DNA from: Olivibacter sp. SDN3
Lineage (GTDB): Bacteria; Bacteroidota; Bacteroidia; Sphingobacteriales; Sphingobacteriaceae
Direction of reading: 5' to 3'
Length of the DNA: 64,000 bases
Assembly (NCBI RefSeq): GCF_014334135.1
Contig: NZ_CP060497.1
Coordinates: 3,410,001-3,474,000, forward strand
The translations under genes were made by a program, and so were the position numbers. Of this stretch, positions 167-18,700 are shown piece by piece. Positions within the stretch are counted from its first letter, which is position 1. Every line of letters begins with the position of its first letter. The notes beneath the pieces are model-generated. The model had not been told where the DNA came from. It was given only the letters and a program-made list of their open reading frames with translations, and did not search any database.

Positions 167-1609
167 ATGAAAACGATATCCTATATCGCCATACTTATGC
201 TGCTCACAGCTTGTCAGAAGACACTGACAGAGCAGCCCAAATCGCTTTCCGTAGAAAACTTCTATAATTCACCTGCCGAAGTGGAAGCAGCGGTAAATGC
301 GGCCTATGCACCACTTCGGAATGTCGATGGTTTAGGCGGAACCTATCTGCCGCAGGTAGAATCTTATGTGGATTATGCTTATGGGCGTGGCAGTTACGGC
401 CCTTTGAGTGAGTTTCAAGGGCTGGACCCCACGAACATTACCCGTACGCAGACCATGTGGAACTTATTTTACCTGTCTATCAGAAATGCCAATCTAGTGA
501 TCGCAAACGCGCCCAATGGCGAGAACCTATCTGCCGAAGATATCGCCAGTTATGTGGCTGAAGCACGATTCATCCGGGCGCTGGACTATTTTTTTCTGGT
601 GCGGCATTGGGGAGCGGTGATTCTGCGTACAGAAGCAAATGCAGAGGAGGAAGCTGCACCTAAAAGCAGCCCTGAGGCCGTATATGCCCTAATTGAAGAA
701 GATCTCCTATTTGCAGAACAAAATCTGCCAACCAATGCGGCATATGCGGGTAAACCATCTTTGTGGGCGGCAAAAACCTTGCTGGCAGATGTTTATTTTT
801 ACCAGCATAAATATGCGGAGGCCGCCGCCAAGGCAGAGGAAGTGATCACCAATGGGCCTTACAGTCTGGTTCCGGTGAGCACTGCAGACGATTTTATCGA
901 TATTTACGGTCCGGATGTGATCAATACGCCGGAAGAAATATTTTATCTGAAGTTTTCCAAACTGGGAAATAACCAAGGTTGGTTTACCGTCATGTTTTTT
1001 CACATCCCGGGTAGCGATATGCATGGGAATGGTGGCTATTATGCCTTGTACACCAGTACGGATAATCCGGTGTACCAGTCTTGGGATGATCGCGATCTCC
1101 GCAAGGCCTATAACTGGTATTCATGGGATATCGGCTTGGGAAATACGAGCCTGCTATCAAAAAAATTTATCGATCCCACTGCGGTGGGCAATAACGGGGC
1201 TTCTAATGACTATCCTTTGTACCGTTACGCCGATCTGTTGCTTATTCATGCCGAGGCGGCCGCACACGCAAATGGTGCGCCCAACGCACAGGCTATCGAA
1301 AGCTTGAATAGCGTACATAGAAGAGCGTATGGTTATAATCCTGCACAGGCAAGTGAAGTCGATTTCCAATTAGGTGATTATGATCTCGCATCTTTTCTGG
1401 ATCTGGTACTTCAGGAAAGGGGTTATGAAACGCAAATGGAGGGAAAGCGTTGGTTGGATCTGAATCGTACGGGAAAGGTTCGGGAAATTATTCGTGAAGC
1501 TACCGGTAAAGATATTGCTGAAAGACATTTTCTGTGGCCCATACCGGTATCTGAGATGAATTTTAATGAAGCGTTGAATCCGGCAACTGATCAAAATCCT
1601 GGTTATTAA
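167..1609 (+). CDS. SusD/RagB-family glycan-binding lipoprotein
   Basis: A 480-residue surface lipoprotein. The N-terminus is a short hydrophobic signal with a lipobox ending at Cys16 (LLTAC). Family hallmarks are the early LSVENFYNSPAEVEAAVNAAY segment, the helical repeat region around residues 120-220 (ARFIRALDYFFLVRHWG) and the C-terminal part with ERGYETQMEGKRWLDLNRTG and a closing LNPATDQNPGY. SusD proteins cap the SusC barrel and bind glycan at the cell surface. The stop codon overlaps the next gene's start (TAATG at 1607-1611), so translation with the GH2 enzyme is probably coupled. The upstream sequence is A-rich without a Shine-Dalgarno site, as is normal in this phylum. Confidence 0.93.
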   Translation: MKTISYIAILMLLTACQKTLTEQPKSLSVENFYNSPAEVEAAVNAAYAPLRNVDGLGGTYLPQVESYVDYAYGRGSYGPLSEFQGLDPTNITRTQTMWNLFYLSIRNANLVIANAPNGENLSAEDIASYVAEARFIRALDYFFLVRHWGAVILRTEANAEEEAAPKSSPEAVYALIEEDLLFAEQNLPTNAAYAGKPSLWAAKTLLADVYFYQHKYAEAAAKAEEVITNGPYSLVPVSTADDFIDIYGPDVINTPEEIFYLKFSKLGNNQGWFTVMFFHIPGSDMHGNGGYYALYTSTDNPVYQSWDDRDLRKAYNWYSWDIGLGNTSLLSKKFIDPTAVGNNGASNDYPLYRYADLLLIHAEAAAHANGAPNAQAIESLNSVHRRAYGYNPAQASEVDFQLGDYDLASFLDLVLQERGYETQMEGKRWLDLNRTGKVREIIREATGKDIAERHFLWPIPVSEMNFNEALNPATDQNPGY

Positions 1610-4473
1610 TGGCGTTTAAAATGAAAGATATACTGCTTAACCTACTGTGGATATATTGCTGTGCTATAGTTTGTGCACAGCCGGATAAGGAGACACATGA
1701 ACTTTGGCAACCCTATCGCATTAGCCCGAGAGCTGCCGCGCAACAGGTGGATATCAGCGGAACCTGGGAGCTGGCTTATACCGACCGGCCTATTGAGGCT
1801 TTCGATGATTTGAAAGATAAACAGGAGGCCTTTGCTACGGAAGTGCCCAATTCGGTACATTGGTCGCTTTATAAAGCGGGCAAACTGCCGCATCCTTATG
1901 CACATCTGAATGCACAACAATATCGCTGGGTAGAGGCAAAGGTTTGGTATTACAGCAAAAAGGTGGAGATGCCAAAAAGAGAACAGCAGATGCGCGCTTT
2001 TTTGTCTTTCGACGGTATCGACTATTTCTCCAGAGTTTGGTTAAACGGGGAGCTGCTTGGCTCGCACGAAGGTATGTTTGGCGGGCCGGTGCTGGAAATT
2101 TCGGATAAACTGCATTGGGAGGGTAGCAATGAGATCGTTGTGGAGGTTAAAGCTGCCAATTGGGGCAAGATGGGTGATAATTTTACCGAACTCAACCGCA
2201 CCAATTCGGGGGAGTTTGATTACAGCAAATTCAATGGCTTCAACCCCCGGAAGAGTGGAAAGATCGTCCGCCCATGGGTAATTGGCGGAGGCTCTGGAAC
2301 GGAAGCTTTCTTTGTGCTGGGCATGTGGCAGCAGGTGCGCATTGATTTGGTACCGCCCGTGCATGTGGAACGACCTTATTTGACAACAGAGGCAATTGCG
2401 TCGGATGAAGCGACCTTGCAGTTCGCATGCGAGCTTTTTGCCAACAAAACGTCACTGGATTTTTCCTTACATCCCTGGCATAATACGCAGATCAACCACC
2501 CCGATGAGAAAGGTAATGTGTTGGCCCCACTACAGAAAAATGTGCAACTTACGCTCAATTTCCTGAGCCATGGGCAGCAGGTACATTCGTTGAGCTGGGA
2601 ATCTGAGGTGATCGAGGGGAAAAGCTGGGTGGAAAAGCAACTGAAGTTGCCGAACCCGAAGCTTTGGTACCCTAATGGATTGGGCGAAGCACATGTTTAT
2701 GCTGTGGAACTGCTTGTAGAACAGGATGGAAAATTAATCGATCAGCTGAACTTTGACTATGGTGTACGAAGTATCGGGCGTAAACGCACTACTTCCGTGC
2801 GAACAGCCGATAATTGGGAAGACTGGCAGTTTGTGGTGAATAATAAACCCATTTTCGTAAAGGGTATGAATTGGACGCCTGCAGATTTACTCTTGGACTT
2901 AAGTGAAGAGCGGTACCGATGGGCATTGCAGGCCATGAAAGATATGGGCGTGCAGCTCGTTCGGGTATGGGGCGGTGGCTTATTGGAGACGGAGACCTTC
3001 TACAAGCTTTGCAATGAGCTGGGCATTATGGTATGGCAGGATTTTCCCATCGGTAATCAGGATACGCCAGACTATCCGCAGGATATCTGGGAAGCACAGG
3101 TGGTGCAGAATATTATCCGCTTACGCAATCATCCTTCGCTTGTAGTCTGGTGCGGGGGGAATGAATTCAACCCCTATTCCTTCGGCAATGCAGCTTCGAT
3201 CGGTATCCTGGAACGAAACCTTACCATTTTTGATCCGAGCCGTTTGTTTTTGCGCACCTCTCCGGATGGCGGTTCGGCACATGTCTATCCGGATATGGAT
3301 CCGAATTGGTACAAAGTGAGTTACCGGAATGAACCTTGGATTGCCGAAACCGGTATGCACAGTATGCCGGAAGCAAAGCTCTTTTATGAACTCGTGGATT
3401 CCAATGAATTTTTCGGTCTGGGAAAAATGTGGGAAAAGGATTTTGCTGCAAAGCATCCGGAGTTTATCCATCATTTTACCGAATATGGCCCGGCGCGGGT
3501 GCCGCGCATGTTGAGTAGGGCCTCGCATTTCAATAATATGCAAGATCCCAGCATCGAAGAGATTACCGAGGCATCGCAGGTGGGGGCGGGTGAATGGTAT
3601 CAGGTGATGGCCGAAGGCGTTCAGGCAAATTATCCCGTAACCACCGGTTTGATGCCCTGGGTCTTCAAAAGGCATTGGCCGGTTATTGCTATACAGTTGA
3701 TGGATTGGTTCGGTCAGGCGGGGGCACCCTACTATTTTCTGAAGCGCACCTATGAGCCTACGCATGTGATGCTTGATCTGCCACGTTTACTCTTTAAGCC
3801 AGGGGAGCAGATAAGGCTTTCGCCCAAGGTGCTGCATGGGCCATATGAAGCCATACCGAAAGCCAACATACGGGTAACTTATATGGACGATACTTTCCAT
3901 GAGCTCGCGGTACGGGAGCAGTCGCTGGATATTGCCGAAGGCACTGGTGTGCACGAACTGGCAATGGATAGTTTGGCTATAGCTGACGATTATCGGGATA
4001 GGTTTCTTTTCCTGATCGTAGAACTTTTCGATCAAAACGGTAAAAAGATATCGCAGTCGCAATATAACCTGCGCGTACTGGCGCAATTAAACGATGCAGC
4101 TTTATACCGTTCTTATTTGGAGGAGCCTATTCCCTGGATCACGCTCGAAAAAGGGCCCTGGCTCAAGCCGCGTGTGGCGAAATCGTCCACTGCATTGTCT
4201 TTGGTTTTGCTTGATCAACGGGAAGAAGATGGCTTGATGCTCATCAGCTGCAAGGTGAAGAATGAAGGAAAAAAGCCGGCCTTTATGACTACTGTGGATA
4301 TAGGAGGTGTTAAAAGGGTTTTTGTTGCCGATGATAATTATTTTTGGTTAGCACCGGGCGAAGAGCGCACGCTGACATTAAAAATCAATTGGCGGGAAAG
4401 CGTAAAAGGAAAGCAGGCGATAATAACGGTTGATGCCTGGAATGCAAAAAGGCAAGTGATTAAACTTGAATAG
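1609..4473 (+). CDS. Glycoside hydrolase family 2, beta-mannosidase-like (intact catalytic pair)
   Basis: A 954-residue enzyme with a signal peptide (cleavage probably after VCAQ, about residue 24). An N-terminal jelly-roll domain (about 50-240, LPHPYAHLNAQQYRWVE and VWLNGELLGSHEGMFGG) is followed by an Ig-like domain and a TIM barrel from about 430. The likely acid/base is Glu519 in WCGGNE and the likely nucleophile is Glu580 in IAETGMHS. The layout matches the beta-mannosidase/exo-glucosaminidase branch of GH2 rather than beta-galactosidase. It should act in the periplasm on oligosaccharides delivered by the preceding SusC/D pair. It has a paralogue at 8168-11044 of similar length and layout, which lacks the acid/base. 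The sugar specificity cannot be read from the sequence. Confidence 0.88.
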   Translation: MAFKMKDILLNLLWIYCCAIVCAQPDKETHELWQPYRISPRAAAQQVDISGTWELAYTDRPIEAFDDLKDKQEAFATEVPNSVHWSLYKAGKLPHPYAHLNAQQYRWVEAKVWYYSKKVEMPKREQQMRAFLSFDGIDYFSRVWLNGELLGSHEGMFGGPVLEISDKLHWEGSNEIVVEVKAANWGKMGDNFTELNRTNSGEFDYSKFNGFNPRKSGKIVRPWVIGGGSGTEAFFVLGMWQQVRIDLVPPVHVERPYLTTEAIASDEATLQFACELFANKTSLDFSLHPWHNTQINHPDEKGNVLAPLQKNVQLTLNFLSHGQQVHSLSWESEVIEGKSWVEKQLKLPNPKLWYPNGLGEAHVYAVELLVEQDGKLIDQLNFDYGVRSIGRKRTTSVRTADNWEDWQFVVNNKPIFVKGMNWTPADLLLDLSEERYRWALQAMKDMGVQLVRVWGGGLLETETFYKLCNELGIMVWQDFPIGNQDTPDYPQDIWEAQVVQNIIRLRNHPSLVVWCGGNEFNPYSFGNAASIGILERNLTIFDPSRLFLRTSPDGGSAHVYPDMDPNWYKVSYRNEPWIAETGMHSMPEAKLFYELVDSNEFFGLGKMWEKDFAAKHPEFIHHFTEYGPARVPRMLSRASHFNNMQDPSIEEITEASQVGAGEWYQVMAEGVQANYPVTTGLMPWVFKRHWPVIAIQLMDWFGQAGAPYYFLKRTYEPTHVMLDLPRLLFKPGEQIRLSPKVLHGPYEAIPKANIRVTYMDDTFHELAVREQSLDIAEGTGVHELAMDSLAIADDYRDRFLFLIVELFDQNGKKISQSQYNLRVLAQLNDAALYRSYLEEPIPWITLEKGPWLKPRVAKSSTALSLVLLDQREEDGLMLISCKVKNEGKKPAFMTTVDIGGVKRVFVADDNYFWLAPGEERTLTLKINWRESVKGKQAIITVDAWNAKRQVIKLE

Positions 4474-4497: not shown

Positions 4498-5298
4498 ATG
4501 AATGCGCATAGCAAGCACAGGAAAACGGCCCTGGTAACAGGCGCCTCCAGCGGAATTGGCAAAGCCATCGCTATACAGTTAGCACATAAGGGTTGGAACA
4601 TATTGCTTCACCACTTCGGGGATGAACGAACGGCCGGGGAGGTATTGGAAGAAATCTTGCAAGGGGGTGGAGAAGGGCATATGCTGACAGCAGATCTGGG
4701 AGATCCCAGCCAGGTAAAGGGCTTGGCAGCCGAAGCCCGGAAGCTATCGGGCGGTGTAGATTTGCTGGTTAACAATGCAGGAGTGTCTTATAAAAAACAT
4801 TTTTTGGATCATACGCTAGAGGACATCGATCACTTCACGAAAGTCAATTTTCGAGGAACGGTATTATTAACGCAGGCCATTGCCCTGCAGATGGTGGAGC
4901 AGGAACGACCGGGCGCTATTTATACGCTTACTTCGGTCAATGCGATACGGCCTGGAATCGGACACAGTGTCTATGGTGCTACCAAGGGTGCTTTGGAAAC
5001 CTTAATGAAGGGCGTGGCGGTGGAATTAGCACCCCATGGCATCCGGGTGAACACCTTGGTCATAGGTGCTATTAAAACGGCAATTAACGAAGCTGTTTGG
5101 CATGATGCGGAGAAGCGGCAAGCGGTAGAGCAGCATATTCCCTTAGGCAGAATGGGCGAGGTGGAAGATATAGCTGCTATCGTGGCACAACTCGTTGATC
5201 ACGATAGGTATATGACGGGATCGAGTATAACCATTGACGGCGGATGGCTTGCCAAGGCAGGTTTTGCGTCTGCTAAACCTTATGGCGATGAAGAATAG
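4498..5298 (+). CDS. SDR-family NAD(P)-dependent oxidoreductase (sugar dehydrogenase type)
   Basis: A 266-residue classical short-chain dehydrogenase. Seen: the cofactor motif TGASSGIG near residues 15-22, NNAG near 97-100, and the catalytic Tyr-x3-Lys in SVYGATKGA with a Ser upstream. The C-terminal MTGSSITIDGGW is the usual end of the fold. The closest-looking relatives are glucose 1-dehydrogenase and 3-oxoacyl reductase-like SDRs. No signal peptide is visible, so it is cytoplasmic. In this operon it most plausibly oxidises an imported sugar to a lactone or acid before the dehydratase at 11077. Its last 17 bases overlap the MFS transporter start. Family is sure; substrate is inference. Confidence 0.9.
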   Translation: MNAHSKHRKTALVTGASSGIGKAIAIQLAHKGWNILLHHFGDERTAGEVLEEILQGGGEGHMLTADLGDPSQVKGLAAEARKLSGGVDLLVNNAGVSYKKHFLDHTLEDIDHFTKVNFRGTVLLTQAIALQMVEQERPGAIYTLTSVNAIRPGIGHSVYGATKGALETLMKGVAVELAPHGIRVNTLVIGAIKTAINEAVWHDAEKRQAVEQHIPLGRMGEVEDIAAIVAQLVDHDRYMTGSSITIDGGWLAKAGFASAKPYGDEE

Positions 5299-6529
5299 AC
5301 ATAAATGGGAACCTTTATTATGGCTGTGGTTGGCTTTTTTTCTCAACCAGGCAGATAGGCAGATATTCGGCGTGGTATTGCCTTTAATTAAGGTGGATCT
5401 TGATTTGACTGACACCGAACTGGGGCTTATTGCATCCGCACTTATCTGGGCATATGGCCTGCTGGTACCCATTGCTGGTTTTGTGGGCGACCGCTATAGT
5501 CGCAGAAACCTGATCGGTTTTTGTTTATTCTTTTGGAGTACGGCAACACTTTTAACGGGTTTTTGCCATACCGTTATGCAGTTTGTACTGCTGCGGGGTA
5601 TTGCAACCGGCGGCGGTGAGGCTTTCTATGCACCGGCGGCCAATGCCTATATCAGTGAAAGGTACCAAAAGCAACGCTCTTTTGCGCTATCACTACATCA
5701 GAGTGCCGTTTACTTTGGTATCGTGCTAAGTGGTTTGATTGCCGGCAGGATAGCCGAAAGCTACGGTTGGCGAAATGCTTTTTACGTCTTTGGCGCGATG
5801 GGCGTGTTGCTCGCGGTGGTGATCTTCCTCCGGATGGCCAAAGATTTGCCTCAACAGGTGGAAGATAAAGTAAGCATCGCAAGCACACTGGCCATCATTG
5901 GTAAAAAGCCTACCGTGCTCTTACTCACTTTTGCCTTTGGATGTATGGTATTTGTAAACGTCGGTTACCTGACCTGGATGCCCTCCTTACTGGTAGAAAA
6001 ATTTAACCTGTCTATTCCGTCCGCTGGCTTCAACTCCATGATTTATCATCATGTGGGTGCATTTACGGGGGTAATTATTGGTGGCTATGTATCGGATAGA
6101 TTAGCTAGGAAGACGGGCAAAAACCGACTGACCTTGCAAGCAATCGCGCTGGCCTGTGGTGTGCCTTTTATATACTTTGTCGGGGCGGCAGGCACAATCA
6201 TCGAAACTTATCTCACTTTATTTGTTTTCGGTGTTTTCCGGGGCATTTATGACGCTAATATTTTTGCTTCACTGTATGAAGTGATTGCACCTAAGATACG
6301 TTCCTCGGCTGCAGGTGTGATGCTGATGATGGCCTTTTTAGTCGGTTCATTTTCACCCTTGTTAATGGGGATACTCAAACCTTTCTGGGGGCTATCATTC
6401 GCCTTTTCGATGTTAAGCGTGAGTTATGCATTGGGTGCTGTGGCCATAGGCTTGGCGGTAAAGTTTTGCTATGCAAATGATAGTTACCTACCTAAAATAG
6501 CTCCGGCACCTTTAACGATTGATACGTAA
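5282..6529 (+). CDS. MFS transporter, probably acid-sugar or sugar uptake
   Basis: About 415 residues with roughly twelve hydrophobic segments. The loop after TM2 carries GDRYSRRNLIG, a variant of the MFS signature, and the N-terminal LNQADRQIFGVVLPLI resembles the anion:cation symporter branch that includes hexuronate, glucarate and galactonate carriers. I chose ATG 5282 (MAMKNRHKWEP) because the longer reading back to 5234 adds a non-hydrophobic stretch lying wholly in the SDR gene. The overlap with the SDR implies coupled translation. It is the only inner-membrane transporter in the cluster and would bring periplasmic hydrolysis products to the cytoplasmic enzymes. Confidence 0.88.
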   Translation: MAMKNRHKWEPLLWLWLAFFLNQADRQIFGVVLPLIKVDLDLTDTELGLIASALIWAYGLLVPIAGFVGDRYSRRNLIGFCLFFWSTATLLTGFCHTVMQFVLLRGIATGGGEAFYAPAANAYISERYQKQRSFALSLHQSAVYFGIVLSGLIAGRIAESYGWRNAFYVFGAMGVLLAVVIFLRMAKDLPQQVEDKVSIASTLAIIGKKPTVLLLTFAFGCMVFVNVGYLTWMPSLLVEKFNLSIPSAGFNSMIYHHVGAFTGVIIGGYVSDRLARKTGKNRLTLQAIALACGVPFIYFVGAAGTIIETYLTLFVFGVFRGIYDANIFASLYEVIAPKIRSSAAGVMLMMAFLVGSFSPLLMGILKPFWGLSFAFSMLSVSYALGAVAIGLAVKFCYANDSYLPKIAPAPLTIDT

Positions 6530-6593
6530 ATCTGGATAAACAACAGCATTAAATGAAATACAAATAGCATAAAAACTCAACAAACAACAAAAT

Positions 6594-7337
6594 ATGAGCA
6601 TAAACCAATATAAGAAAGAAGTAGGCATGATGAACCTGGATGCCTTAATTAAATTACGCGAGCGTAATGAAAAAATAGCTTTTCCGGTGCCGGATAAAGA
6701 ACTGCTCGAAAGGTTTGAAAAGTTATATACCGGTGCGGTTAACGATGTGTTAAGAGAGTTTTGCCTCTTGAATCAGGCACTACCCCATCACATTCTTCCC
6801 TTGCGGGAATACCGCACGGTTGCGGGCTTGGCTTTTACCGTCAAAAGTGCACCGAATGCCATTATTAGTGGTGAAATGGAATTCCGAACGCAAATGTTAG
6901 ACGAGATGCATGAAGACGCCTTTGTGGTTTGGGACACCAGTGCTGATGAACAGGCTACACTATGGGGCGGTGTTATGACGGCAACGGCCAAAGGTAAAAA
7001 GGTGAAAGCGGCATGCATTGACGGCGGCATTCGCGATACCCACCAGATTTTGGAAGCAGATTTTCCGGTGTTTTATAAATACCGCATTTCGAACGGAAGT
7101 CTTGGGCGCTGCCTGATCAGTCATTACCAGGTCACGATCATCATCGGAAATGTAACGATCAAACCGGGAGATATTATACTCGGTGATATCGATGGTGTTC
7201 TAGTGGTGCCACGGGATATGGCTTATAAGGTGCTTCTCCGGGCCGAAGAGATTCTAAAGAACGAGAAGCAGATCTTTGAATGGGTTAAAAACGGCGAATC
7301 GGTCAAAGATATTAAGGATAAAGGAGGTTACTTTTAA
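6594..7337 (+). CDS. RraA-family protein, probable 2-keto acid aldolase/decarboxylase
   Basis: A 247-residue protein with the RraA-like fold signature: TGAVNDVLREF near residue 45, GGVMTATAKGKKVKAACIDG near 125-144 and the GGIRDT segment with the conserved Arg-Asp, then GDIILGDIDGVLVVPRD. RraA relatives include HMG/CHA aldolases, which use a divalent metal and cleave 4-hydroxy-2-oxo acids to pyruvate, as well as RNase E regulators, which are unlikely here. Beside an acid-sugar dehydratase and a dehydrogenase, cleavage of a 2-keto-3-deoxy acid is the best guess. Alternative starts exist at 6627 and 6630. The C-terminal helix (EEILKNEKQIFEWVKNGES) is longer than in minimal RraA proteins. Confidence 0.85.
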   Translation: MSINQYKKEVGMMNLDALIKLRERNEKIAFPVPDKELLERFEKLYTGAVNDVLREFCLLNQALPHHILPLREYRTVAGLAFTVKSAPNAIISGEMEFRTQMLDEMHEDAFVVWDTSADEQATLWGGVMTATAKGKKVKAACIDGGIRDTHQILEADFPVFYKYRISNGSLGRCLISHYQVTIIIGNVTIKPGDIILGDIDGVLVVPRDMAYKVLLRAEEILKNEKQIFEWVKNGESVKDIKDKGGYF

Positions 7338-7401
7338 TCGGAATAACTATTATTGCTTTTATTATATTAAAATTCATTTCCTTAATAATAAATACGTTAA
7401 T

Positions 7402-8139
7402 ATGATACAGGTGATAAATAGGGCTTTTGATATTTTAGAATTGCTGTCAAAAGAGCCAAAAAAAGTATTCTCACTTACAGAGATCGCTAATGAACTGGAA
7501 TTAAACCATGCTACATGTGCTAATATTATGAAAACTATGGTTCACAGAAATTATATTGAGCAATTAGGGCACAAGAAAGGTTATCGTATTGGTTACATGG
7601 CTTACCAGTTGAGCGGAGAATCTTTGTATGAAAAGGAATTGATTAAGGCCGCAAAAGATGAAATGTATAAATTAACGCATGCACTGAATGAGACCAGTCT
7701 CCTGGGTGTTCGAAGGAAAGATATTCGGGTATCGCTTCATCAGGAAATGTCTGACAATGATCTGATGGTAAAATCCAAGATCGAAAAACATGTTTTCAGC
7801 AGTGCTTCAGGAAGGATGTTGGTAGCCGCATTAGGTGCGGCGGAACGCGAAGATTTTATTAAACAATATGGCTTGCCTACACGTGAATTATGGCCGGAGG
7901 CAAGTACTGCGGCAGGATTTGGGCGGGAAGTGAAGAAAATAATCGAACAGGGCTTTGCCAAGCAGATCAGTGAGGCACATATTGTAGGTTATGCGGTGCC
8001 AATAGCTAAAAAACAACTGGTGGTTGCCAGTTTAAGCGTGTATTTACCAGAAGCCAGAGTGAACGATAAGAAGGAGAAAACCATTGTAAAGGCGCTGAAA
8101 CAGACCGCAACGGCAATTGATAAGAAGCTCGTGACCTGA
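7402..8139 (+). CDS. IclR-family transcriptional regulator
   Basis: About 245 residues. An N-terminal winged helix (residues 1-65: NRAFDILELLSKEP, FSLTEIANELELNHATCANI) is followed by an IclR effector domain (SSASGRMLVAALG, and GYAVPIAKKQLVVASLSVYLP near the end). I start it at ATG 7402 because IclR proteins normally begin a few residues before the RAFDIL segment; the longer reading from 7276 runs through the RraA gene. IclR regulators often bind small organic or sugar acids and control catabolic genes for them. A regulator of this type inside a PUL, in place of an HTCS or a sigma/anti-sigma pair, fits sensing a cytoplasmic acid-sugar intermediate. Confidence 0.88.
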   Translation: MIQVINRAFDILELLSKEPKKVFSLTEIANELELNHATCANIMKTMVHRNYIEQLGHKKGYRIGYMAYQLSGESLYEKELIKAAKDEMYKLTHALNETSLLGVRRKDIRVSLHQEMSDNDLMVKSKIEKHVFSSASGRMLVAALGAAEREDFIKQYGLPTRELWPEASTAAGFGREVKKIIEQGFAKQISEAHIVGYAVPIAKKQLVVASLSVYLPEARVNDKKEKTIVKALKQTATAIDKKLVT

Positions 8140-8167
8140 TCAATGCATGGGCCTAAACGAAAATACC

Positions 8168-11044
8168 ATGATAAACCTAAATTTGATTAAACTCGCTGGC
8201 ACATTTCTGCTCGTCTCGTGGGTATTTGTAGGCTCCGGCCAGGAAAAAGCTGCAGGGCAGATCGGCCGGGAAAATCTTGCCGAATCCGGTGCGCCGCTAA
8301 TCGGTCTGCCGGCAAATGATTCCACCAGAGGTGAAACGCTCTGGCAGCCTTATTATGTATACCCCCGAAAGCCGTCGCAGCAGATCGATCTGAGCCGGGG
8401 ATGGGTCTTAACGCACCTTTCCACACCCCTGGATAGCGCCGTAAAATTCCCTGATACCACGCATTGGATTGGCCTTGAACGAAATGCAAGCGTGCATGCG
8501 ACCTTGTTTCAGGCAGGCTTGCTGCCCGATCCCTATAAACACCTCCATGCGGAACAATACCGTTGGGTAGAGCAGCGTGCATGGTATTATCGTAATCATT
8601 TTGAACTCCCAGATGCCGGAGGTGATTATATTTTCCTGAGTTTCGGCGGGATAGATTATTACAGTAGGATATGGCTAAATGGGCAATTGATCGGTCAGCA
8701 TGAAGGCATGTTCGGAGGTCCTGTTATCGAGATAAGTAAGTATGCTAAAAAGGGTAAGAATGACTTGTTGGTAGAGGTACTTTCGGCAAATTTTGGTATG
8801 CAGGAGAAATTTAATCCCAAAGCACCCGGGAGAGCGATTAAGGGATGGGCTTTTACCGGCGGGACGGGGGTAGAGCCTTTTTTTACCGTAGGCATGTGGC
8901 AGGGTGCACGGATAGATCGCGTTGCGCCAGTCCATATGGAACGCCCTTTTCTGGTTACAGAAAACCTGTCTGACGAGTTTGCAGAATTGGAGCTTTCGCT
9001 GGAGCTTTTTTACCGGAAGCACTCGCTCGATTTTACGTTGCATCCCTGGCAGAACACCATCCTCTCGCGTGGTGTGCCCAGCACTAAACTCCAAAAAGTC
9101 GACAGCAATTTGCGCTTGAAGGTCAGTTTAGCGGTGCCGGGCGATGAGGAACAGGTTTTTGAATATCCTTTGTCGCTTTTTGAAGGGCGGAACTGGTTAA
9201 AAGAACGTATCAGGATTGAAAAACCCAAGCTTTGGTGGCCCAATACGATGGGTGAGGCGCAATTGTATAAGGTAACCTTATCTTTAACGGAAAATGGCGA
9301 AGTGCGTGATGAGATAGACTTTGATTATGGTATCCGCACGATTGGGCAGCAGCCAAATTTTGGGCCGCAGGTGGAAGAGCGATGGAAAGACTGGCACTTT
9401 GTGATCAATGGTAAGCCTATTTTCCTGAAAGGCATCAACTGGATGCCTGCTGATGTCTTGCTGGATATGCCCGAAGAACGTTATCGCTGGCTTTTGCAGA
9501 TGGCGAGAGATGCAGGCATACAGATGATCCGGATATGGGGCTCGGGGTTGATCGAAACGGAAACCTTTTATAAGCTGTGTAACGAAATGGGGATCATGGT
9601 CTGGCAGGATTTTCCTATCAGTCATTACGATGCACCGGATTATCCACCGGATGTTTGGGAGGCGCAGATCTTGCATAATGTATTTCGTTTACGGAACCAC
9701 CCTTCACTTTCGGTATACAATGGCGGGAATGGTCATAATCCTTATTCCTATGGCAATAATCGTACATTGGGCATTCTGGAACGCTTGCTCAACGATTTTG
9801 ACCCCTCGCGCTTGTTCAGCCGTACCACTTCTGATGCAGGCAATGCGCATGTCTACCCGGATATTGATCCCAGCTTTTACGATACCTTATATCATTATGT
9901 GCCTTTCATTTCGGAAACAGGCATGCATTCCATTGCCAATCCGAAGGGTTTGCGACAGCTAATCGATCCAAAGGAATGGAACGATCTGGGGAATATCTAT
10001 TCTGATAGTTTTGCGGCAAATCACCCTGAATTTATTTCGCATTTTGCGGAGTTTGAACCGAGCCGGGTACCCCGCATGTTAAGTCGTGCTTCACATATAG
10101 ACGATATGCGTAGCCCGAGCTTGGAAAGTATTGCGGAGGCAACCCAGATCGGTGCAGGCGAATTTTATCAGATTCTGTCGGACGAGTTGCAGGGGAATTA
10201 TCCCTTCAATAACGGCCTCATGCCTTGGGTGTTTAACAGAACCTGGCCGGTGGTATCGGCCATCATGCTCGTCGACGGTTTTGGCCAACCGGTAGCACCT
10301 TATTATTTTTTGAAGCGATCGTACCTGCCTTTACGCGCCAAACTGGATTTAGCATCGCTTTTTTGGGCACCCGGAGAAGACTTCCCGCTGGCCGTTCGTG
10401 TCCTGAACGCTTCAGAAGAGAAAACGTCCGTACAATTAAGCGTTACGGTTTATGACGATGAATTTTCCACCTTATGGGAGCAGCATGAAACGGTAGAAGT
10501 TCAGGAAGGTGTTCCGGTGACAAAAGTGGATTTCGGCACTTTTGCCATCCCGGAAACCTATGCAGACCGTTACCTTTTTGCGCTTGTTGCCTTAAAAGAC
10601 AGTGATGGCAGGGAGATAAGCACCATACCTTATTGGCCAAGGGTACTGAAAGCGATGCAAGATAGCACTTTCCGTGTAGAACAACGGAGTTTGGACGTCT
10701 TGAAACCATGGCCAACATTTAAAGAAGGTCCCTGGCTTAAGCCTACCGTAACCCGTAATAAGAGTGCTTTCAAAGCGCGTATAGCCAGTGTGCTGACGGA
10801 GCAATCTTACACGGTGCTGGAACTGACGATAAAAAACAGTCGTGCAACACCACTCTTCATGACGGAGCTGGCACTCGAGGGCGATACCCATACCTTTTAT
10901 GCAGACGACAACTTTTTCTGGTTACCGGCCGGTGCGGAGAAGAATGTGCGGGTAACCATAAATGCAGCACGCCCCACACTGGGGAAAGAGCGGCTGAAAA
11001 TAGCAGCATGGAACGCAGCACCTCAATTTTTAACGATCGATTAA
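8168..11044 (+). CDS. Glycoside hydrolase family 2, beta-mannosidase-like paralogue lacking the acid/base Glu
   Basis: About 958 residues with signal peptide, the same domain order as the GH2 at 1609 and clearly similar sequence (LPDPYKHLHAEQYRWVE, WLNGQLIGQHEGMFGG, RIWGSGLIETETFYKLC). The nucleophile is kept: Glu583 in ISETGMHS. The acid/base position reads YNGGNG instead of WCGGNE, so Glu is Gly522. The codon is GGT (9731-9733), two changes from GAA or GAG, which argues against a single-base sequencing error. The Trp-Cys before the motif is also lost (Tyr-Asn). The reading frame is otherwise intact and full length, so it does not look like a decaying gene. It may be a binding protein, use another proton donor, or act on a glycoside with a good leaving group. 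ATG 8147 is an alternative start; 8168 gives a cleaner signal peptide. Confidence 0.87.
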   Translation: MINLNLIKLAGTFLLVSWVFVGSGQEKAAGQIGRENLAESGAPLIGLPANDSTRGETLWQPYYVYPRKPSQQIDLSRGWVLTHLSTPLDSAVKFPDTTHWIGLERNASVHATLFQAGLLPDPYKHLHAEQYRWVEQRAWYYRNHFELPDAGGDYIFLSFGGIDYYSRIWLNGQLIGQHEGMFGGPVIEISKYAKKGKNDLLVEVLSANFGMQEKFNPKAPGRAIKGWAFTGGTGVEPFFTVGMWQGARIDRVAPVHMERPFLVTENLSDEFAELELSLELFYRKHSLDFTLHPWQNTILSRGVPSTKLQKVDSNLRLKVSLAVPGDEEQVFEYPLSLFEGRNWLKERIRIEKPKLWWPNTMGEAQLYKVTLSLTENGEVRDEIDFDYGIRTIGQQPNFGPQVEERWKDWHFVINGKPIFLKGINWMPADVLLDMPEERYRWLLQMARDAGIQMIRIWGSGLIETETFYKLCNEMGIMVWQDFPISHYDAPDYPPDVWEAQILHNVFRLRNHPSLSVYNGGNGHNPYSYGNNRTLGILERLLNDFDPSRLFSRTTSDAGNAHVYPDIDPSFYDTLYHYVPFISETGMHSIANPKGLRQLIDPKEWNDLGNIYSDSFAANHPEFISHFAEFEPSRVPRMLSRASHIDDMRSPSLESIAEATQIGAGEFYQILSDELQGNYPFNNGLMPWVFNRTWPVVSAIMLVDGFGQPVAPYYFLKRSYLPLRAKLDLASLFWAPGEDFPLAVRVLNASEEKTSVQLSVTVYDDEFSTLWEQHETVEVQEGVPVTKVDFGTFAIPETYADRYLFALVALKDSDGREISTIPYWPRVLKAMQDSTFRVEQRSLDVLKPWPTFKEGPWLKPTVTRNKSAFKARIASVLTEQSYTVLELTIKNSRATPLFMTELALEGDTHTFYADDNFFWLPAGAEKNVRVTINAARPTLGKERLKIAAWNAAPQFLTID

Positions 11045-11076
11045 CAAACCTCATAATATTTACTTTATCACAAGCT

Positions 11077-12267
11077 ATGAAAATTATAGACTTAAAAGTA
11101 CGCTGTGTAGCGATACCGCTTAACGCCCAATTGCGGCACAACACAGGGGTGCATCCCGGTTATTTCCTGCGCACCATTTTAGAACTCGTTACAGACGAAG
11201 GTTTGATCGGATTGGGAGAGGTGGGGGGAGGCGATCAACGTGCAGCCTTGCTGAAACTCAAACCGAGGGTTGTGGGTATGGATCCCTTTCATCTGGAGCT
11301 GATCAAGCTTAAGGTGCTCCGGAGCATCTATTACCTGTCCAATGCGCGTTTATACGCCGCTATTGAGATGGCCTGCCTGGATATTCAGGGGAAGGTGCTG
11401 AACCGCCCTTTGAGCGATCTGTTGGGCGGAAGTGTTCGTAGTAAGATCCCGATGATTGCTTACCTGTTCTGGCGTTACGACCGCCCGGACGGAAAGCATG
11501 ATGAACGCGCGGAAGATCTGGCAGACCACTGCGTGGAATTGCATGAAACCTTAGGGGTTAAAAGCATGAAACTGAAAGCGGGTGTGCAGTCGCCGGCCGA
11601 GGAAGCGCGCGTGCTGCGCTTATGTCGGGAGCGATTGGGCGATGATTTTGGCTTACGCATCGATCCCAATGGCTTATGGTCTGTTGCTACAGCGGTTAAA
11701 ATCGGCCAGCAATTACAAGATCTGGGCCTGGAATATTTTGAAGATCCTTCCTGGGGGCTGGAGGGAAATGCTGCGGTGCGGAAAAAGCTCAACATTCCGA
11801 TCGCTACCAACATGTACCCCAATAAATTTGACGATCTCGGGCCGGCCATCCGCCTAGGTGCGGTAGATATAGTGCTCACCGATATTCATTATTGGGAAGG
11901 ACCGCGGGGAGTGAAAGATCTATGTGCCGTTTGCCAAACATTTAATTTAGGTGTCGCGATGCACAGTGGTGCCGAATTCGGTATCGAGCTTGCGGCCATG
12001 TTACATACGGCTTCCACCATTCCGACTATGACCTTCGCTGGAGATGCTCATTACCACTATTTATTGGATGATATTATTGAAGGAGGCTTGATGCCTTATA
12101 AAGAGGGTTGTATTGCCGTACCGCAGGGGCCGGGCTTGGGCGTGACCCTCGACGAAGACAAAATGAAGTTCTATGGGACTTATTATGAGAAGAAAGGCGA
12201 CTATTATGCGCGTTTCCATCAGGATCCCTACCGTCCGGATTGGTATCCCACCGTAGGAGGGATGTAA
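11077..12267 (+). CDS. Enolase-superfamily dehydratase, glucarate-dehydratase-like
   Basis: About 396 residues. Visible active-site pattern: Lys165-x-Lys167 (MKLKAG), metal ligands Asp196 (DPNG), Glu222 (FEDP) and Asn245 (ATNM), then Asp269 (LTDIHYW) and His296 (MHSG) as the His-Asp dyad. Asn as third metal ligand, the DxHxW segment and PGLGV near the end match the glucarate dehydratase subgroup. The HSN-type motif of glucarate dehydratase is HSGAEFG here, so the substrate may differ from D-glucarate. The enzyme should abstract the proton alpha to a carboxylate and eliminate water, giving a 2-keto-3-deoxy acid. ATG 11077 begins with the usual capping-domain strand (MKIIDLKVR). No signal peptide, so cytoplasmic. 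Confidence 0.87.
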   Translation: MKIIDLKVRCVAIPLNAQLRHNTGVHPGYFLRTILELVTDEGLIGLGEVGGGDQRAALLKLKPRVVGMDPFHLELIKLKVLRSIYYLSNARLYAAIEMACLDIQGKVLNRPLSDLLGGSVRSKIPMIAYLFWRYDRPDGKHDERAEDLADHCVELHETLGVKSMKLKAGVQSPAEEARVLRLCRERLGDDFGLRIDPNGLWSVATAVKIGQQLQDLGLEYFEDPSWGLEGNAAVRKKLNIPIATNMYPNKFDDLGPAIRLGAVDIVLTDIHYWEGPRGVKDLCAVCQTFNLGVAMHSGAEFGIELAAMLHTASTIPTMTFAGDAHYHYLLDDIIEGGLMPYKEGCIAVPQGPGLGVTLDEDKMKFYGTYYEKKGDYYARFHQDPYRPDWYPTVGGM

Positions 12268-12302: not shown

Positions 12303-13625
12303 ATGATGAAGAAGTTAATGATCTTATTGTTTTTAGTCGCAAAGCTTAGTTATGCGCAACAGGAAAAGGTGGATTCGCTATGGAGCGATCCGCTGGTGGA
12401 GCAACAGATTGAAGAAGGAATAGAAAAAAATCGTAAAGGTGATTTCGTACTAAAGTTAGATGGATTGGCCAAAGGTGATGCCGAGATAACGATCGAACAG
12501 GTGAGGCATGACTTTTTGTTCGGTGCAAATGCTTTTATGGTAGGCGGCTTTGAAGAAGCGGAGAAAGATCAGCAATACGGACAAGTGTTTGATTCGCTAT
12601 TCAATTTGGCTACCGTTCCTTTTTATTGGAAAACCTTAGAGCCACAGCAGGGAGACCGGCGCTTTGAAAAGGGAAGTGAACCTATTTATCGCCGGCCGGC
12701 ACCGGATGCCGTGCTGGAATTTTGCCAGACGCATCAGCAAACACCGAAAGGCCATACCTTGATCTGGAATAATCCCACACATTCGGTACCTGATTGGCTG
12801 CCGAAAGACACCGCGGCAATTGAAGAGCTGATGGAAGAGCGTATTAAAATCATTGCCGAGCGCTACGGTGATAAAATTAAAACTTGGGATGTGGTCAATG
12901 AAATGTTGCACTATTTTCCGCAGGTAATCATGCCTAAAGATTATGTGTATAAGTCGTTTAAGATGGCTGAGAAATATTTTCCTGCAGACACACGTCTATT
13001 TATTAATGAAGTGACCAGTGTTTGGCTTAATCCGCATGAGTACAGTCCGTATAACCTTTTGATAGATAATCTCTTGAAACGGGGAGCAAAAATCGATGGC
13101 ATTGGCTTACAGTATCATTTTTTCAATGAGGCCGTTCGCGATAACGTACTTGCCGGGAAAGTCATGCGCCCGAAGGATCTGACCGATGCCTTAAATCTCT
13201 ACGGAGCTTATAATTTGCCCATACACGTCTCCGAAATAACCATTCCCGCGATGCCTAATACCGCAGAAGGCCAGGCGTACCAGGCAAAGCTCACGCGCAA
13301 TTATTACCGGCTGTGGTTTAGCCATCCTGCAGTAGAGTCCATTATTTGGTGGAATGTGGTTGACGGCACGGCCGTAAAGGGCGAAGATGTATTTAATGGT
13401 GGGATATTGAATAATGATTTTTCTAAAAAGCCGGTGTACGGGGTGTTGGATGAACTGATTAATAAAGATTGGAAAACAAACATCTCGGATAAGCTTAGCG
13501 ATCAGGGGGAGTATAGTTTTCGAGGTTATTATGGCAGATATAGGATAAGCATAAAACAGAAAGGCAAAAAGGTAATCGAAAAGGAGGTGGCATTTACACG
13601 TGACGCTCCTGTTGTAAGCTTTTGA
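12303..13625 (+). CDS. Divergent GH10 endo-beta-xylanase-like glycosidase
   Basis: A 440-residue secreted protein (signal peptide ending near SYAQ, residue 19). A TIM barrel with the GH10 acid/base Glu200 in TWDVVNE and the nucleophile Glu311 in HVSEITI; IGLQYHF and WWNVVDG are further family segments. Residues lining the minus-one subsite differ from xylanases: the usual ENxxKW strand reads FYWKTLEP and the usual HTLVWH reads HTLIWNN. The N-terminal 60 residues and the C-terminal 60 look like small beta domains. It is the last gene of the first PUL. A xylan substrate should not be assumed; GH10-like enzymes also act on other beta-glycosides. Confidence 0.85.
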   Translation: MMKKLMILLFLVAKLSYAQQEKVDSLWSDPLVEQQIEEGIEKNRKGDFVLKLDGLAKGDAEITIEQVRHDFLFGANAFMVGGFEEAEKDQQYGQVFDSLFNLATVPFYWKTLEPQQGDRRFEKGSEPIYRRPAPDAVLEFCQTHQQTPKGHTLIWNNPTHSVPDWLPKDTAAIEELMEERIKIIAERYGDKIKTWDVVNEMLHYFPQVIMPKDYVYKSFKMAEKYFPADTRLFINEVTSVWLNPHEYSPYNLLIDNLLKRGAKIDGIGLQYHFFNEAVRDNVLAGKVMRPKDLTDALNLYGAYNLPIHVSEITIPAMPNTAEGQAYQAKLTRNYYRLWFSHPAVESIIWWNVVDGTAVKGEDVFNGGILNNDFSKKPVYGVLDELINKDWKTNISDKLSDQGEYSFRGYYGRYRISIKQKGKKVIEKEVAFTRDAPVVSF

Positions 13626-14971: not shown

Positions 14972-15748
14972 TTAACCTAATTTTTCTTTTAAGTAGTCTA
15001 TATAAGCTTTTGGCGATAGATTAAAGTGTTTTTGGAAGTTTTTTCCGAAAACACTTTGTGAGCTATAACCTACTTTATTGGCGATCTGAAAGATTTTATA
15101 GTCATTTTCGGCAATAAGTTTTGCAGCTGCGTTCAACCGGATCCGGTCGACAAAATCTTTGGGTGATAGCTGGGAGATTGATTTCATCTTTCGATAAAAA
15201 GTAGGCCTGCTCATGTTCATATGTTCGGCCAATTCTTCTACGCCTAGATGTTGGTTGTCCATATTTTTACAGATATAGTCGTTTAGCTTTTGAAGAAACA
15301 CCTCATCAGACCTCGAAGTTAAGTTCATCTGGAAGTGATCAAGAGGCACGCGCTCCGAATGCTCCCTAATTTTTGATCTGTTTTTCAATAGGTTGACCAC
15401 CTGAACCTGCAAAAGTTTAGGTGAAAAAGGTTTTCCTATATAGGCATCTGCTCCTGTTTCTAATCCTTCAATTTTGGCATGATAACTGTTTTTGGCGGTT
15501 AGGAGGATAACGGGGATATGGCAATAATCGATGTTAGCTTTAAGCATTTGGCACAACTCAAAACCATTTAGGCCGGGCATCATGACATCGCTGATGATCA
15601 GATGAATGATCTGGTTCCGCAATATTTCCAGGGCTTTGTTTGCGTCAATAGCCGCAAATACCTGGTATTGGCTGCCCAGTATCTCCGTTAGAAATTCCAA
15701 TAAGTCTTCTTGATCATCAATTATCAATAATGTTTCTTTCATGGTCAT
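14972..15748 (-). CDS. Response regulator with AraC-type DNA-binding domain (output half of a split HTCS)
   Basis: A 258-residue protein. Residues 5-120 form a receiver domain with the acidic pair at 11-12 (IIDDQED), phospho-acceptor Asp54 (IISDVMMPG) and Lys106 (YIGKPF). Residues about 150-258 hold an AraC helix-turn-helix pair (VEELAEHMNMSRPTFYRKMK and FQIANKVGYSSQSVFGKNF). These are the domains normally fused at the C-terminus of Bacteroidota HTCS proteins. Its start overlaps the kinase gene's 3' end by 32 bases. In its own frame a TGA stop directly precedes the ATG, so it is a separate cistron and not a single-base frameshift of a fused gene. It probably activates the neighbouring susC/D operons. 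Confidence 0.9.
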   Translation of the reverse strand: MTMKETLLIIDDQEDLLEFLTEILGSQYQVFAAIDANKALEILRNQIIHLIISDVMMPGLNGFELCQMLKANIDYCHIPVILLTAKNSYHAKIEGLETGADAYIGKPFSPKLLQVQVVNLLKNRSKIREHSERVPLDHFQMNLTSRSDEVFLQKLNDYICKNMDNQHLGVEELAEHMNMSRPTFYRKMKSISQLSPKDFVDRIRLNAAAKLIAENDYKIFQIANKVGYSSQSVFGKNFQKHFNLSPKAYIDYLKEKLG

Positions 15749-18700
15749 TCAAATTTTCTTTAACATTAAGCTGAAAGGCTATTTGTTGATCTAGCGGTAA
15801 AGTCAATTCAAAAACGGTCAATTGTTCCGCATGTTCCATAATTTCCAGGTGCCCTCCATGTAATTCAGCTAATGACTTAGCTAAAGATAAACCGATGCCG
15901 GTTCCCTTTAAGGCAAAATGGCTAGGAATCCTAAAGAAAGGCTCAAATATTTTTTTGCGGTACATAGGGGGAATAGGCTCACCATCATTGGTAATGCTAA
16001 TCTTAAATGAATCGCCGGTCACAGTAAATAAACGAATTGCTAGATGGTGGTTTCCATATTTAACGGCATTCGATAACAAGTTGCTAACGATCTTGATAAA
16101 AGCCTCTTGATCCACAGGGGCCTTGAGGTGTGGATCAGGCAGCAAAAGTTTTAATTTCAACTGCTTCTTCTCGATCTGCGACCTGAAATTATTTACGCAG
16201 TTAAGCAATATCTGATTGATATCCAGTAATACGAAATTCAGACCAAACTGATCGATCTCCATTTTTCTGAAATCTAATAGCTGCGTGGTAAGTGCCACCA
16301 ATCGATCGGTATTCTTCTCCACTAATCGGAGGTTCCGCTGCACCGTATCGGTATCGTTGATCTGGCTCAAGGCCCATTCTACCGGCCCCTTTATTAAGGT
16401 TAAGGGTGTCTGTATTTCATGGGCGATATTGGTGAAAAACTCAATTTTTGCCTGGTAAACCTCTCGCTCTTTTTCCAGTTCGAATAGTTGCAATCGGCGT
16501 TGGTTCTTTCGTTTAATCCCTTGATGATAAACATAGGCGGCGAGGGAAACAAGCAATATAACAAGCACTGCGTAAAGCAGATAAGCCGGTAAGCTTTTCC
16601 AAAAAGGAGGTAGTACCGTGATCGTAAGGTGCTGTTCTTCACCTGTCCAGTAGCCAACATTACTTTCTGCCTGTACGACAAAATGGTAAACACCCGCCGG
16701 TAAGCCCGTGAAGTAGGCTTTTCGATTAGCGGAAAGATAGGTCCATTCCTTTTCCAGACCCTCCAATCGGTATTTGTATTTGACAACCTCAGGTGAAGAG
16801 AAGTCAAGTGCCGCGAATTCTATATTGAAGCTTGCCTGACGATGATTCAGTACGATGGAGTCTGTAAATAACATCGATTTTTTTAATAGGGAAGAAGAAT
16901 CTCCCGGGAGAATGTCTTTGTTGTTGATCTGTATTTTAGTGATGTAGGTTGGAGGAGGGCTTTTCTTCTTAATGAGGAGATCCTCGGGAACAAAGGCGAT
17001 CATTCCCTTAACAGTACCGAAATACATTTTGCCATTTTTATCCTTATAAGCCGAGTTATAATTAAACTGATCAGTAATCAATCCGTTGGATTTGGTGTAA
17101 ACATGAAATTTTTCGGTCAGTATATTGAAGCATATCAAACCTTTAAGGCTACTGATCCATAGATTCCCGAAATCGTCCTCTAATACTCTATAGATGTTGT
17201 TTGTTGGAAAGCCCTCATCTGTTGTAAATCGCTTGGTTAATTTTCTTGTACTATCGAGTTTAACTAAACCTCCGCCTTCTGTGGCAAACCAGAGCGATTT
17301 TTGGTTATCCTCATAGATGCCCTGAACCGTATAATAATTTTTAACGGTATCAGTTACCTTGTTAAAGCTGATATTGCCATGTTCACCGGTTTTTGGATTG
17401 AAGTAAAAGGCCCCATTATATAGACTTCCTGTCCATATTGTTCCATGGTGATCTTCAGCTATCGCATATACAAATGAGTTACCGGGTATGGGCTTTATTT
17501 GCGATAAGCTCCGCAAATCTAGACGATACTCATGTAGCCCAGCTCCGGTGGTGCCGACTAAAATGCGTTGATCAGCGGTTTTAAATATAGACATGACCAT
17601 GCCACTGATGTCATTCTTTTCCGACCTGATCCATGGATGCCGATCGATTACTTTTCCGGTACGGAAGTCCATGACTTCAAAACCGTGAATGAAAGGACCG
17701 GCAAGTAAATGATTACCCTCTACAAGCAAACCATGGATATTGGGGTAGGAAAGACCCGTATTGGGGTCTTGGTGATTGATGTGCGTAAATTTTCCGGTAC
17801 TTACATCTAATTTGTTGATACCGGCATCTTCGGTGCCTATCCAGATATTTCCCGAACTATCGCCGCAGATTTCACGCACCGCATTACCCGAGATGGAACC
17901 TGCCGTGTTTAGTGGATAATATTTTTCAAAATAGCCGGCCTCTTGGGAGAAATAGTTTAGCCCGCCAAAAAAAGTTCCCACCCACACGCCAGCATTCTTG
18001 TCGGCAAACACCGTATATGTGGCATTATCATTTAGCGAATAGCTATCGCCCGGAATTTTCTTTAAATGGGTGGTATGATTGGTAGCAACATCGTAAATAA
18101 ATACGCCCGACTCGGTAGCAATGTAATGTGTTGTGCCATCCGTATGAATTTCCCTGACATAGATATCTGCCCCGTATTCATTTCTGGAAAGTATATTGGT
18201 GGTGGTCTTAGTACGGCTATCATAAGCAAATAAACCACGCATGGTGCCTATGAGGAGATTATTACCAAAATGCCTTATCTGCGTAACCGCACGATGTTTA
18301 AAAGGTTCATTACTGGCCAAAGGGATATCGCTGGTTTGATGATGTTGCGCATCGAGCTTTTTAATATCGCCCGCTATAGTGGCCAACCAAATATTTCCTT
18401 CGTTATCAATATCAAAGGCGGTAAGCGATAAATCAAAAGCCAATAATTTTGACGAGGATTGGTCGTATTTGTATAAGTTTGCGTTAGCAATAATCCATAG
18501 GTTATTTTTGCTATCAATTTTAAGATCACGGATGTTTAGAAAGGGAAGTAGATTGAACTGCCGAAAGGATTCGGATACTGGATCAAATTTGAATAATCCC
18601 ATTTGCGTGCCCACCCATATAAAACCATCATTATCCTCACGAACTATCCTGATATAGTTTGCGCCGGAATTGTTCGAGGGAATGATATGATGTTTGAAGT

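Follow-up and report, generated by a model that had tools for sequence, protein, structure and literature searches.

We analysed a 64,000-nucleotide stretch of Olivibacter sp. SDN3 DNA (NZ_CP060497.1, positions 3,410,001 to 3,474,000; hereafter the window), which comes from a genome consisting of one 6.12 Mb contig. A polysaccharide utilization locus (PUL) in the window encodes, in order, a SusD-like protein, a glycoside hydrolase family 2 (GH2) protein with the usual acid/base Glu, a short-chain dehydrogenase/reductase (SDR), a major facilitator superfamily (MFS) transporter, an RraA-like aldolase, an IclR-family regulator, a second GH2 protein whose acid/base position is Gly, an enolase-superfamily dehydratase-like protein and a GH10-like protein. 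An initial annotation had pointed to this Glu-less GH2 paralogue beside a canonical one in a single PUL, and our analysis supports that description. Our best reading of the sequences is that the second GH2 gene is a maintained variant of the family, not a decayed copy, since in distant relatives too the Glu is gone and the same two nearby changes accompany its loss.

The second GH2 gene (8147-11044, + strand) is open throughout, with 0 internal stops, and is intact and full length as first described. Its 965-residue product contains RNHPSLSVYNGGNGHNPYS and FISETGMHS and has an N-terminus that, judged by eye, resembles a signal peptide. The YNGGNG motif lies at 9716-9733; it had been placed one codon late, at 9719-9736, which covers NGGNGH. 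Gly529 (9731-9733) replaces the acid/base Glu, and its GGT codon is indeed two base changes from GAA or GAG. The possibility that another carboxylate occupies the acid/base place was checked at the sequence level, and no Glu or Asp is found within ten residues either side of Gly529. The expected catalytic nucleophile, Glu590 (9914-9916), is retained in ISETGMHS, as had been noted. The canonical paralogue (1609-4473, + strand, 954 residues), identified by translation, Pfam and BLASTP, reads WCGGNE at the corresponding site, and its translation has Glu519 (3163-3165) as acid/base and Glu580 (3346-3348), in IAETGMHS, as nucleophile. BLASTP aligns the two window paralogues with 424/928 identical residues (46%) and no gap across the motif. 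We refer below to proteins of the two kinds as Gly-type (GGNG) and Glu-type (GGNE).

The Gly-type protein retains the GH2 architecture, with N-terminal sugar-binding and Ig domains followed by the barrel. Pfam reports PF22666 (2.4e-24), PF00703 (2.3e-10) and PF02837 (5.8e-8); PF02836, which models the barrel, comes up for the paralogue and not for the Gly-type protein. The loop-7 nucleophile Glu590 and the strand-2 Arg (Arg462) of GH2 are present, and the acid/base Glu of the loop-4 NE motif is missing, the motif reading NG. In an AlphaFold2 model of the protein (mean pLDDT 86.4, pTM 0.89) we assign the barrel strands to 427-432, 460-463, 484-488, 521-525, 556-558, 567-569, 587-591 and 690-693. 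Foldseek aligned this model with GH2 structures over 944 columns; the best match was 2VJX (E 2.1e-52; TM-score 0.71 by query and 0.81 by target), and each of the 50 matches listed is a GH2 beta-mannosidase, the GH2 protein CapGH2b or the exo-glucosaminidase CsxA. In a phmmer search of solved structures, GH2 beta-mannosidases again came first (5N6U, 1.5e-56). Membership of GH2 by sequence and fold stands despite the NG motif, because subfamilies with a replaced acid/base are kept inside GH2 in the parts of PMC12243196 considered here; canonical function does not follow from it.

A scan of genome contigs seeded with the window Gly-type protein alone yielded 96 relatives, of which 80 were kept, and the motif was first read in 96 matches across 91 loci. 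Gly occurred in the window protein and in two others among those matches, at 6575-9406 of a locus titled Tannerella sp. (L012) and at 8511-11444 of one titled Cytophagaceae bacterium (L014). A fourth Gly-type protein (L140/L143), from a genome in the family of Pollutibacter (L013), came to light with a profile built from these three and reads YCGGNGFNPYS. This protein had no part in building the profile of the first three, and as an out-of-sample case it scores 1398 bits on that three-member profile, against at most 1266 for Glu-type rows. Gly thus stands at the acid/base position in four genomes, with pairwise identities of 43-62%, and the three genes whose Gly codon was read each use a different one (GGT, GGG and GGC). 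The question of whether GGNG is conserved among homologues is answered positively by these four genomes, in three of which, those of the window, L012 and L014, a GGNE copy lies upstream at the same locus. In the L143 genome, a 3.4 Mb draft, a GGNE copy was not found at E-values up to 1e-100. The GGNE copy of the Cytophagaceae bacterium (L014:2858-5713) carries one in-frame TAG early in the gene, from draft-genome error or decay, which leaves the canonical partner in that genome in doubt. Another of its contigs (L104/L142) holds a third copy, cut off by the contig edge before the motif, with Asn at the position of His493 (see below).

The profile of the first three Gly-type proteins was then applied to sets of genomes. 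Together with the searches by the window protein alone, these sets, which overlap, amount to 1940 genome slots, mostly drawn samples searched at an E-value limit of 1e-100 or 1e-150, and more Gly-type proteins may exist. Genomes with a match numbered 1/395 for the phylum (the window's own), 5/400 for the order, 37/222 for the family of L014, 6/123 for that of L012, 2/244 for that of L013, 1/247 for the order of L012, and 1/2 and 1/1 for two genera. A search of the window's own family with the window protein alone gave a match in 4/301 genomes, and four other genomes of its genus gave none at E-values up to 1e-100. All new relatives whose motif was read carry Glu, except L140/L143, and six further Glu-type proteins read later also carry Glu, Asn and Pro at the three signature positions described below. 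The plasmid search returned one record, Runella slithyformis pRUNSL01, which is Glu-type; viral contigs gave 26 pattern matches, with no relative among them.

To compare the two types we aligned the four Gly rows with 49 Glu-type rows, of which 43 are close and six, titled Bacillota, more distant; the fragments L098, L103 and L104 were excluded. The Glu-type rows are uniform at 71 columns. Of these, 63 are unchanged in every Gly row, five are altered in one or two Gly rows, and three are altered in all four. The unanimous changes are Asn to His493 (CAT, 9623-9625), Glu to Gly529 and Pro to Ser562 (TCT, 9830-9832). At position 493 His is found in 4/4 Gly rows and Asn in 49/49 Glu-type rows; the corresponding residues are Gly (4/4) and Glu (49/49) at 529, and Ser (4/4) and Pro (49/49) at 562. 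The nucleophile position, 590, is Glu in every row of both types. While the initial annotation had recognized an intact Glu-less paralogue in the PUL, the accompanying Asn-to-His and Pro-to-Ser changes had gone unnoticed.

In the predicted fold, His493, Gly529 and Ser562 follow barrel strands 3 (484-488), 4 (521-525) and 5 (556-558), around the acid/base site, and the nucleophile sits on strand 7 (587-591). Eight of the 71 invariant columns lie after strands 3-5, which gives 0.001 for three out of three falling there at random, a figure for windows chosen after the result was seen. Other residues common to the four Gly rows and present in at most one of the 43 close Glu-type rows are R308, G309, E411, L449, N566, L602, N697, S704 and M707. 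Asn697 (10235-10237), in the loop after strand 690-693, stands where the close Glu-type rows have Lys (42) or Arg (1). The E411 column is Asp in all 43 of those rows, and this Asp-to-Glu change, just before the barrel, is the only acidic change in the signature. Two further candidates, Glu to Asp679 and Gln to Ile305, were unanimous in the first three Gly rows, failed in the fourth and were dropped.

In a wider alignment of 98 GH2 rows, which includes Escherichia coli LacZ and GUS, the acid/base column holds Gly in 4 rows and Glu in 94, and His493, Gly529 and Ser562 are each found in 4 rows. Arg462, Asn528 of the NE motif, Trp464, Trp694 and the nucleophile are retained in all four Gly rows. 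Overall conservation is also similar between the types. A set of 35 Glu-type rows has 244 invariant columns; 186-191 of these are preserved in the first three Gly rows, and 189-204 in eight divergent Glu-type rows that were picked by hand and not drawn. Among Asp, Glu, His, Cys, Tyr and Lys residues invariant in the four Gly rows between positions 405 and 724, His493 is the sole new one. No carboxylate has been gained in the barrel by all four Gly rows, and their signature list contains no new Arg there.

These observations lead us to favour, tentatively, the reading that the Gly-type protein is a maintained, probably secreted, retaining-type GH2 variant whose acid/base side has been rebuilt as a unit, with His493 as the likely stand-in; activity, mechanism and substrate are what we infer from this pattern. 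The half of the retaining mechanism that concerns the covalent intermediate is kept, in Glu590, the Arg462 supporting it, Asn528 of the NE motif, and the pocket residues Trp464 and Trp694. A glycosyl-enzyme would form on Glu590, and His493, one strand away, would give the leaving group its proton, activate water, or do both. The substrate would perhaps have an easy leaving group, so that Glu is not needed. A more specific proposal is that the acid/base function has passed from Glu on strand 4 to His on strand 3, while Glu became Gly and the strand-5 Pro became Ser, in a lineage perhaps adapted to an unusual substrate and retained alongside its canonical paralogue; this is possible, and we hold it with less confidence. 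His493 is the favoured candidate because it is the only new ionisable barrel residue in all four proteins and because its loop borders the acid/base site of LacZ. That loop aligns to DEANIETHG in LacZ, of which E416 and H418 bind the active-site Mg together with the acid/base E461, and it is from this shared Mg that we place the loop at the border of the site.

Several observations weigh against this reading. His493 falls on the LacZ Thr between the two Mg ligands and may point away from the site. Glu470, Glu610 and Glu635 are identical in all 53 rows and could serve instead. The Gly type is rare in the genomes searched, and the four Gly rows may reflect few events. Gly rows sit on long branches, with 1.2-1.4 changes per column, and with the fourth row in and the eight signature columns out, the Glu-type protein L124 falls among them with a support of 50. 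A tree of three Gly rows with the signature columns in had given one clade (SH-aLRT 93), and this first impression of one firm Gly clade was not upheld under the other conditions. When the rows are thinned to 33, again with signature columns out, one Gly clade is not rejected (approximately unbiased test, p 0.097), and in the 32 rows without L124 it is recovered with a support of 47. If Gly arose twice, the His-Gly-Ser combination would be convergent and the functional link between its members strengthened. L124 (also L147; G935) has a near-usual gene set in its locus and may lie near the Glu-type sister of the Gly-type proteins.

The genes around the two GH2 genes are all on the + strand. They encode a SusD-like outer-membrane protein (167-1609; Pfam SusD_RagB, 2.8e-24), an SDR oxidoreductase resembling sugar dehydrogenases (4498-5298; no NCBIfam cut-off reached among the 25 models shown), and, by domain and family models, an MFS transporter (5234-6529), an RraA-like aldolase family protein (6594-7337) and an enolase-superfamily protein resembling acid-sugar dehydratases (11008-12267). 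The IclR-family regulator (7276-8139) has BhcR and KdgR as its nearest NCBIfam models, reaching the cut-off of neither, and the GH10-like protein (12303-13625), assigned from domain models and motif, carries WDVVNE. When 15 query proteins were compared with 14 stretches, much the same gene set appeared around Glu-type GH2 genes. Nine of the stretches, chosen by hand and not drawn, contain the Glu-type gene and both flanks (L013, L015, L105 and L147-L152): the SDR and MFS genes occur in 9/9 (some SDR matches being weak, 104-141 bits), RraA in 8/9 (not L150; weak in L149), SusD in 8/9 (not L149) and the enolase-superfamily gene in 8/9 (not L015, which has a UxuA-like dehydratase in an open frame instead). 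An SMP-30 lactonase and a UxuA-like dehydratase occur in relatives' loci. From gene content, the neighbours may be read as a route from aldose through aldonolactone and aldonate to a 2-keto-3-deoxy acid and then an aldolase, in which sugars would be oxidised at C1.

Some features of related loci are recorded here in their own right. A pyrroloquinoline quinone (PQQ)-dependent dehydrogenase lies directly downstream of the Gly-type gene in two of the four genomes (L014:11536-13659 and L143:720-2900); the window gene has no such neighbour, and in L012 the contig stops right after the GH2 gene. In Pedobacter hiemivivus (L015:8981-12778) a UxuA-like mannonate dehydratase and the GH2 share one open frame of ~1265 codons, with a signal-peptide-like stretch, by eye, at the junction, which suggests either a fusion or an overlapping internal start. 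The 107 kb Runella slithyformis plasmid pRUNSL01 (L105) carries a whole Glu-type locus of IclR, SusC, SusD, LamG, GH10, enolase, GH5-like, SDR, GH2, MFS, SMP-30 and RraA genes. Elsewhere in the window, another GH2-like gene begins at 61999 and runs off the end at 64000; by eye it is of beta-galactosidase type and reads MWSIGNE, with Glu present. Very long open frames at 15717-18899 and 52752-56915 are, as a guess from their N-termini, perhaps hybrid two-component regulators of adjoining loci.

Other explanations for the missing Glu must be set beside relocation to His493. The protein could be an acid-independent glycosidase or a transglycosidase with no substitute for Glu, acting where a good leaving group is present (an aryl or acyl glycoside, or a thioglycoside) or where the glycosyl group passes to an external anion or acceptor. 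Plant myrosinases, and glycosidases whose acid/base has been deleted, are precedents for such action. Retention of the nucleophile, Arg462 and the pocket Trp residues while the acid/base shrinks to the smallest residue is consistent with this explanation, as are the GH10-like gene in the locus and the RraA-like protein, which has further matches, short of the cut-off, to aromatic-catabolism aldolases. It leaves the unanimous Asn-to-His change in the neighbouring loop unexplained, however, and no gene clearly for phenol or thioglucoside catabolism is present among the annotated locus genes; we consider it unlikely, if a serious competitor.

Alternatively, the protein may be a binding-only pseudoenzyme: a glycan-binding or regulatory protein, or an inactive partner subunit, that holds the substrate or product of its canonical neighbour. 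The presence of a GGNE copy beside the Gly-type gene in three genomes out of four and a conserved pocket from which the acid/base has gone would fit such a role. But the nucleophile and Arg, kept in 4/4 proteins, would be superfluous for a pure binder, and the L143 draft, with no GGNE copy detected at the limit given above, offers no evident partner; this too we think rather improbable, although it and the acid-independent enzyme are the chief competitors of the His493 reading. A further option is that the acid/base role falls to one of the old family carboxylates, Glu470, Glu610 or Glu635, much as a different Glu is proposed to take it in GH2_21 (PMC12243196, in the parts considered). These residues are invariant in both types, yet they are equally so in the type that has Glu519, where another role is required of them, and we regard this option as quite improbable.

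The initial annotation had raised substrate-assisted catalysis by a uronic acid carboxylate, prompted by the acid-sugar genes nearby. The KdgR-like regulator and the UxuA-like dehydratase of relatives lend this idea some weak support. However, on the oxidative route proposed above the acid-sugar chemistry is made by the cell and no uronate is needed in the glycan, so the neighbours are no evidence for one; and the loop-8 Lys687, a possible carboxylate contact by analogy with hexuronidases, is present in the Glu enzymes and is Asn in the Gly enzymes. We therefore judge it very unlikely. An isolated loss-of-function mutation or sequencing error is rejected as next to impossible, given four genomes, different codons and co-changing residues.

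The pair makes for a clean comparison, since the paralogues share a locus and differ at three linked, otherwise invariant positions. If His493 is the acid/base, the pair illustrates a way for a catalytic residue to change place within a retaining glycosidase, and the relocation would be a natural move of the general acid/base to histidine in a clan GH-A retaining enzyme. If it is not, the Gly type would be a pseudoenzyme that is well conserved, or nature's equivalent of the enzymes from which engineers delete the acid/base to obtain glycosyl transfer. A His acid/base has a precedent in GH3 enzymes of the NagZ type, and GH1 myrosinase manages without the Glu; both belong to families unrelated to the GH2 Gly type.

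Among the closest known proteins are the canonical GGNE proteins, such as the window paralogue and the Runella pRUNSL01 protein WP_013921645, which share the locus type and, for Bacteroidota rows, 43-48% identity with the Gly type; they carry Glu, Asn, Pro and Lys where it carries Gly, His, Ser and Asn. Among solved structures, the best structural and sequence matches are GH2 beta-mannosidases (BtMan2A, 2VJX/2JE8; XacMan2A, 6BYE; Dictyoglomus, 5N6U), which have in common with the Gly type the loop-2 Trp, the nucleophile Glu and the Arg. Identity to them is ~20% in the Foldseek alignments, and their acid/base Glu is Gly in our protein. In addition, a loop-3 Cys found in 47/98 rows is His in the Gly type, and a loop-8 Asp found in 74/98 rows is Arg. 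PMC12243196, in the parts considered, places 6BYE in GH2_13; of the features of these beta-mannosidases, the loop-2 Trp is present (Trp464) and the acid/base Glu is replaced by Gly. The loop-8 NxK motif of Group I hexuronidases is absent: after the last barrel strand the sequence is PWVFNRTWP, with N-R-T instead of N-x-K.

Departures from the NE motif are described elsewhere in GH2 in the sections of PMC12243196 considered here, which report an SD motif in GH2_16. In GH2_19 (7XYR), TV, NA or NQ replaces NE in proteins described there as functionally untested; like the Gly type, these are natural GH2 proteins without the acid/base, but they belong to Group III, NE is still commonest there, and linked changes are not described in those sections. 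The GH2_21 beta-glucuronidases, which act on ulvan, replace the acid/base Glu with Trp, Lys, Arg or Asn and keep the nucleophile, and a different conserved Glu has been suggested as the substitute; they lie on a different GH2 branch, with no Gly/His signature described in the same sections. Nor did we find a description of Gly with linked His and Ser in the beta-mannosidase-like branch in those sections or in open-licence titles and abstracts. According to the authors of PMC12243196, it will take functional work to learn if a GH2 protein whose NE motif is altered still has activity, or has a mechanism or activity of an original kind. Judged against these sources, a missing acid/base Glu in GH2 is an already published kind of departure (GH2_21, GH2_19), and the combination of Gly, His and Ser is a new variant of it.

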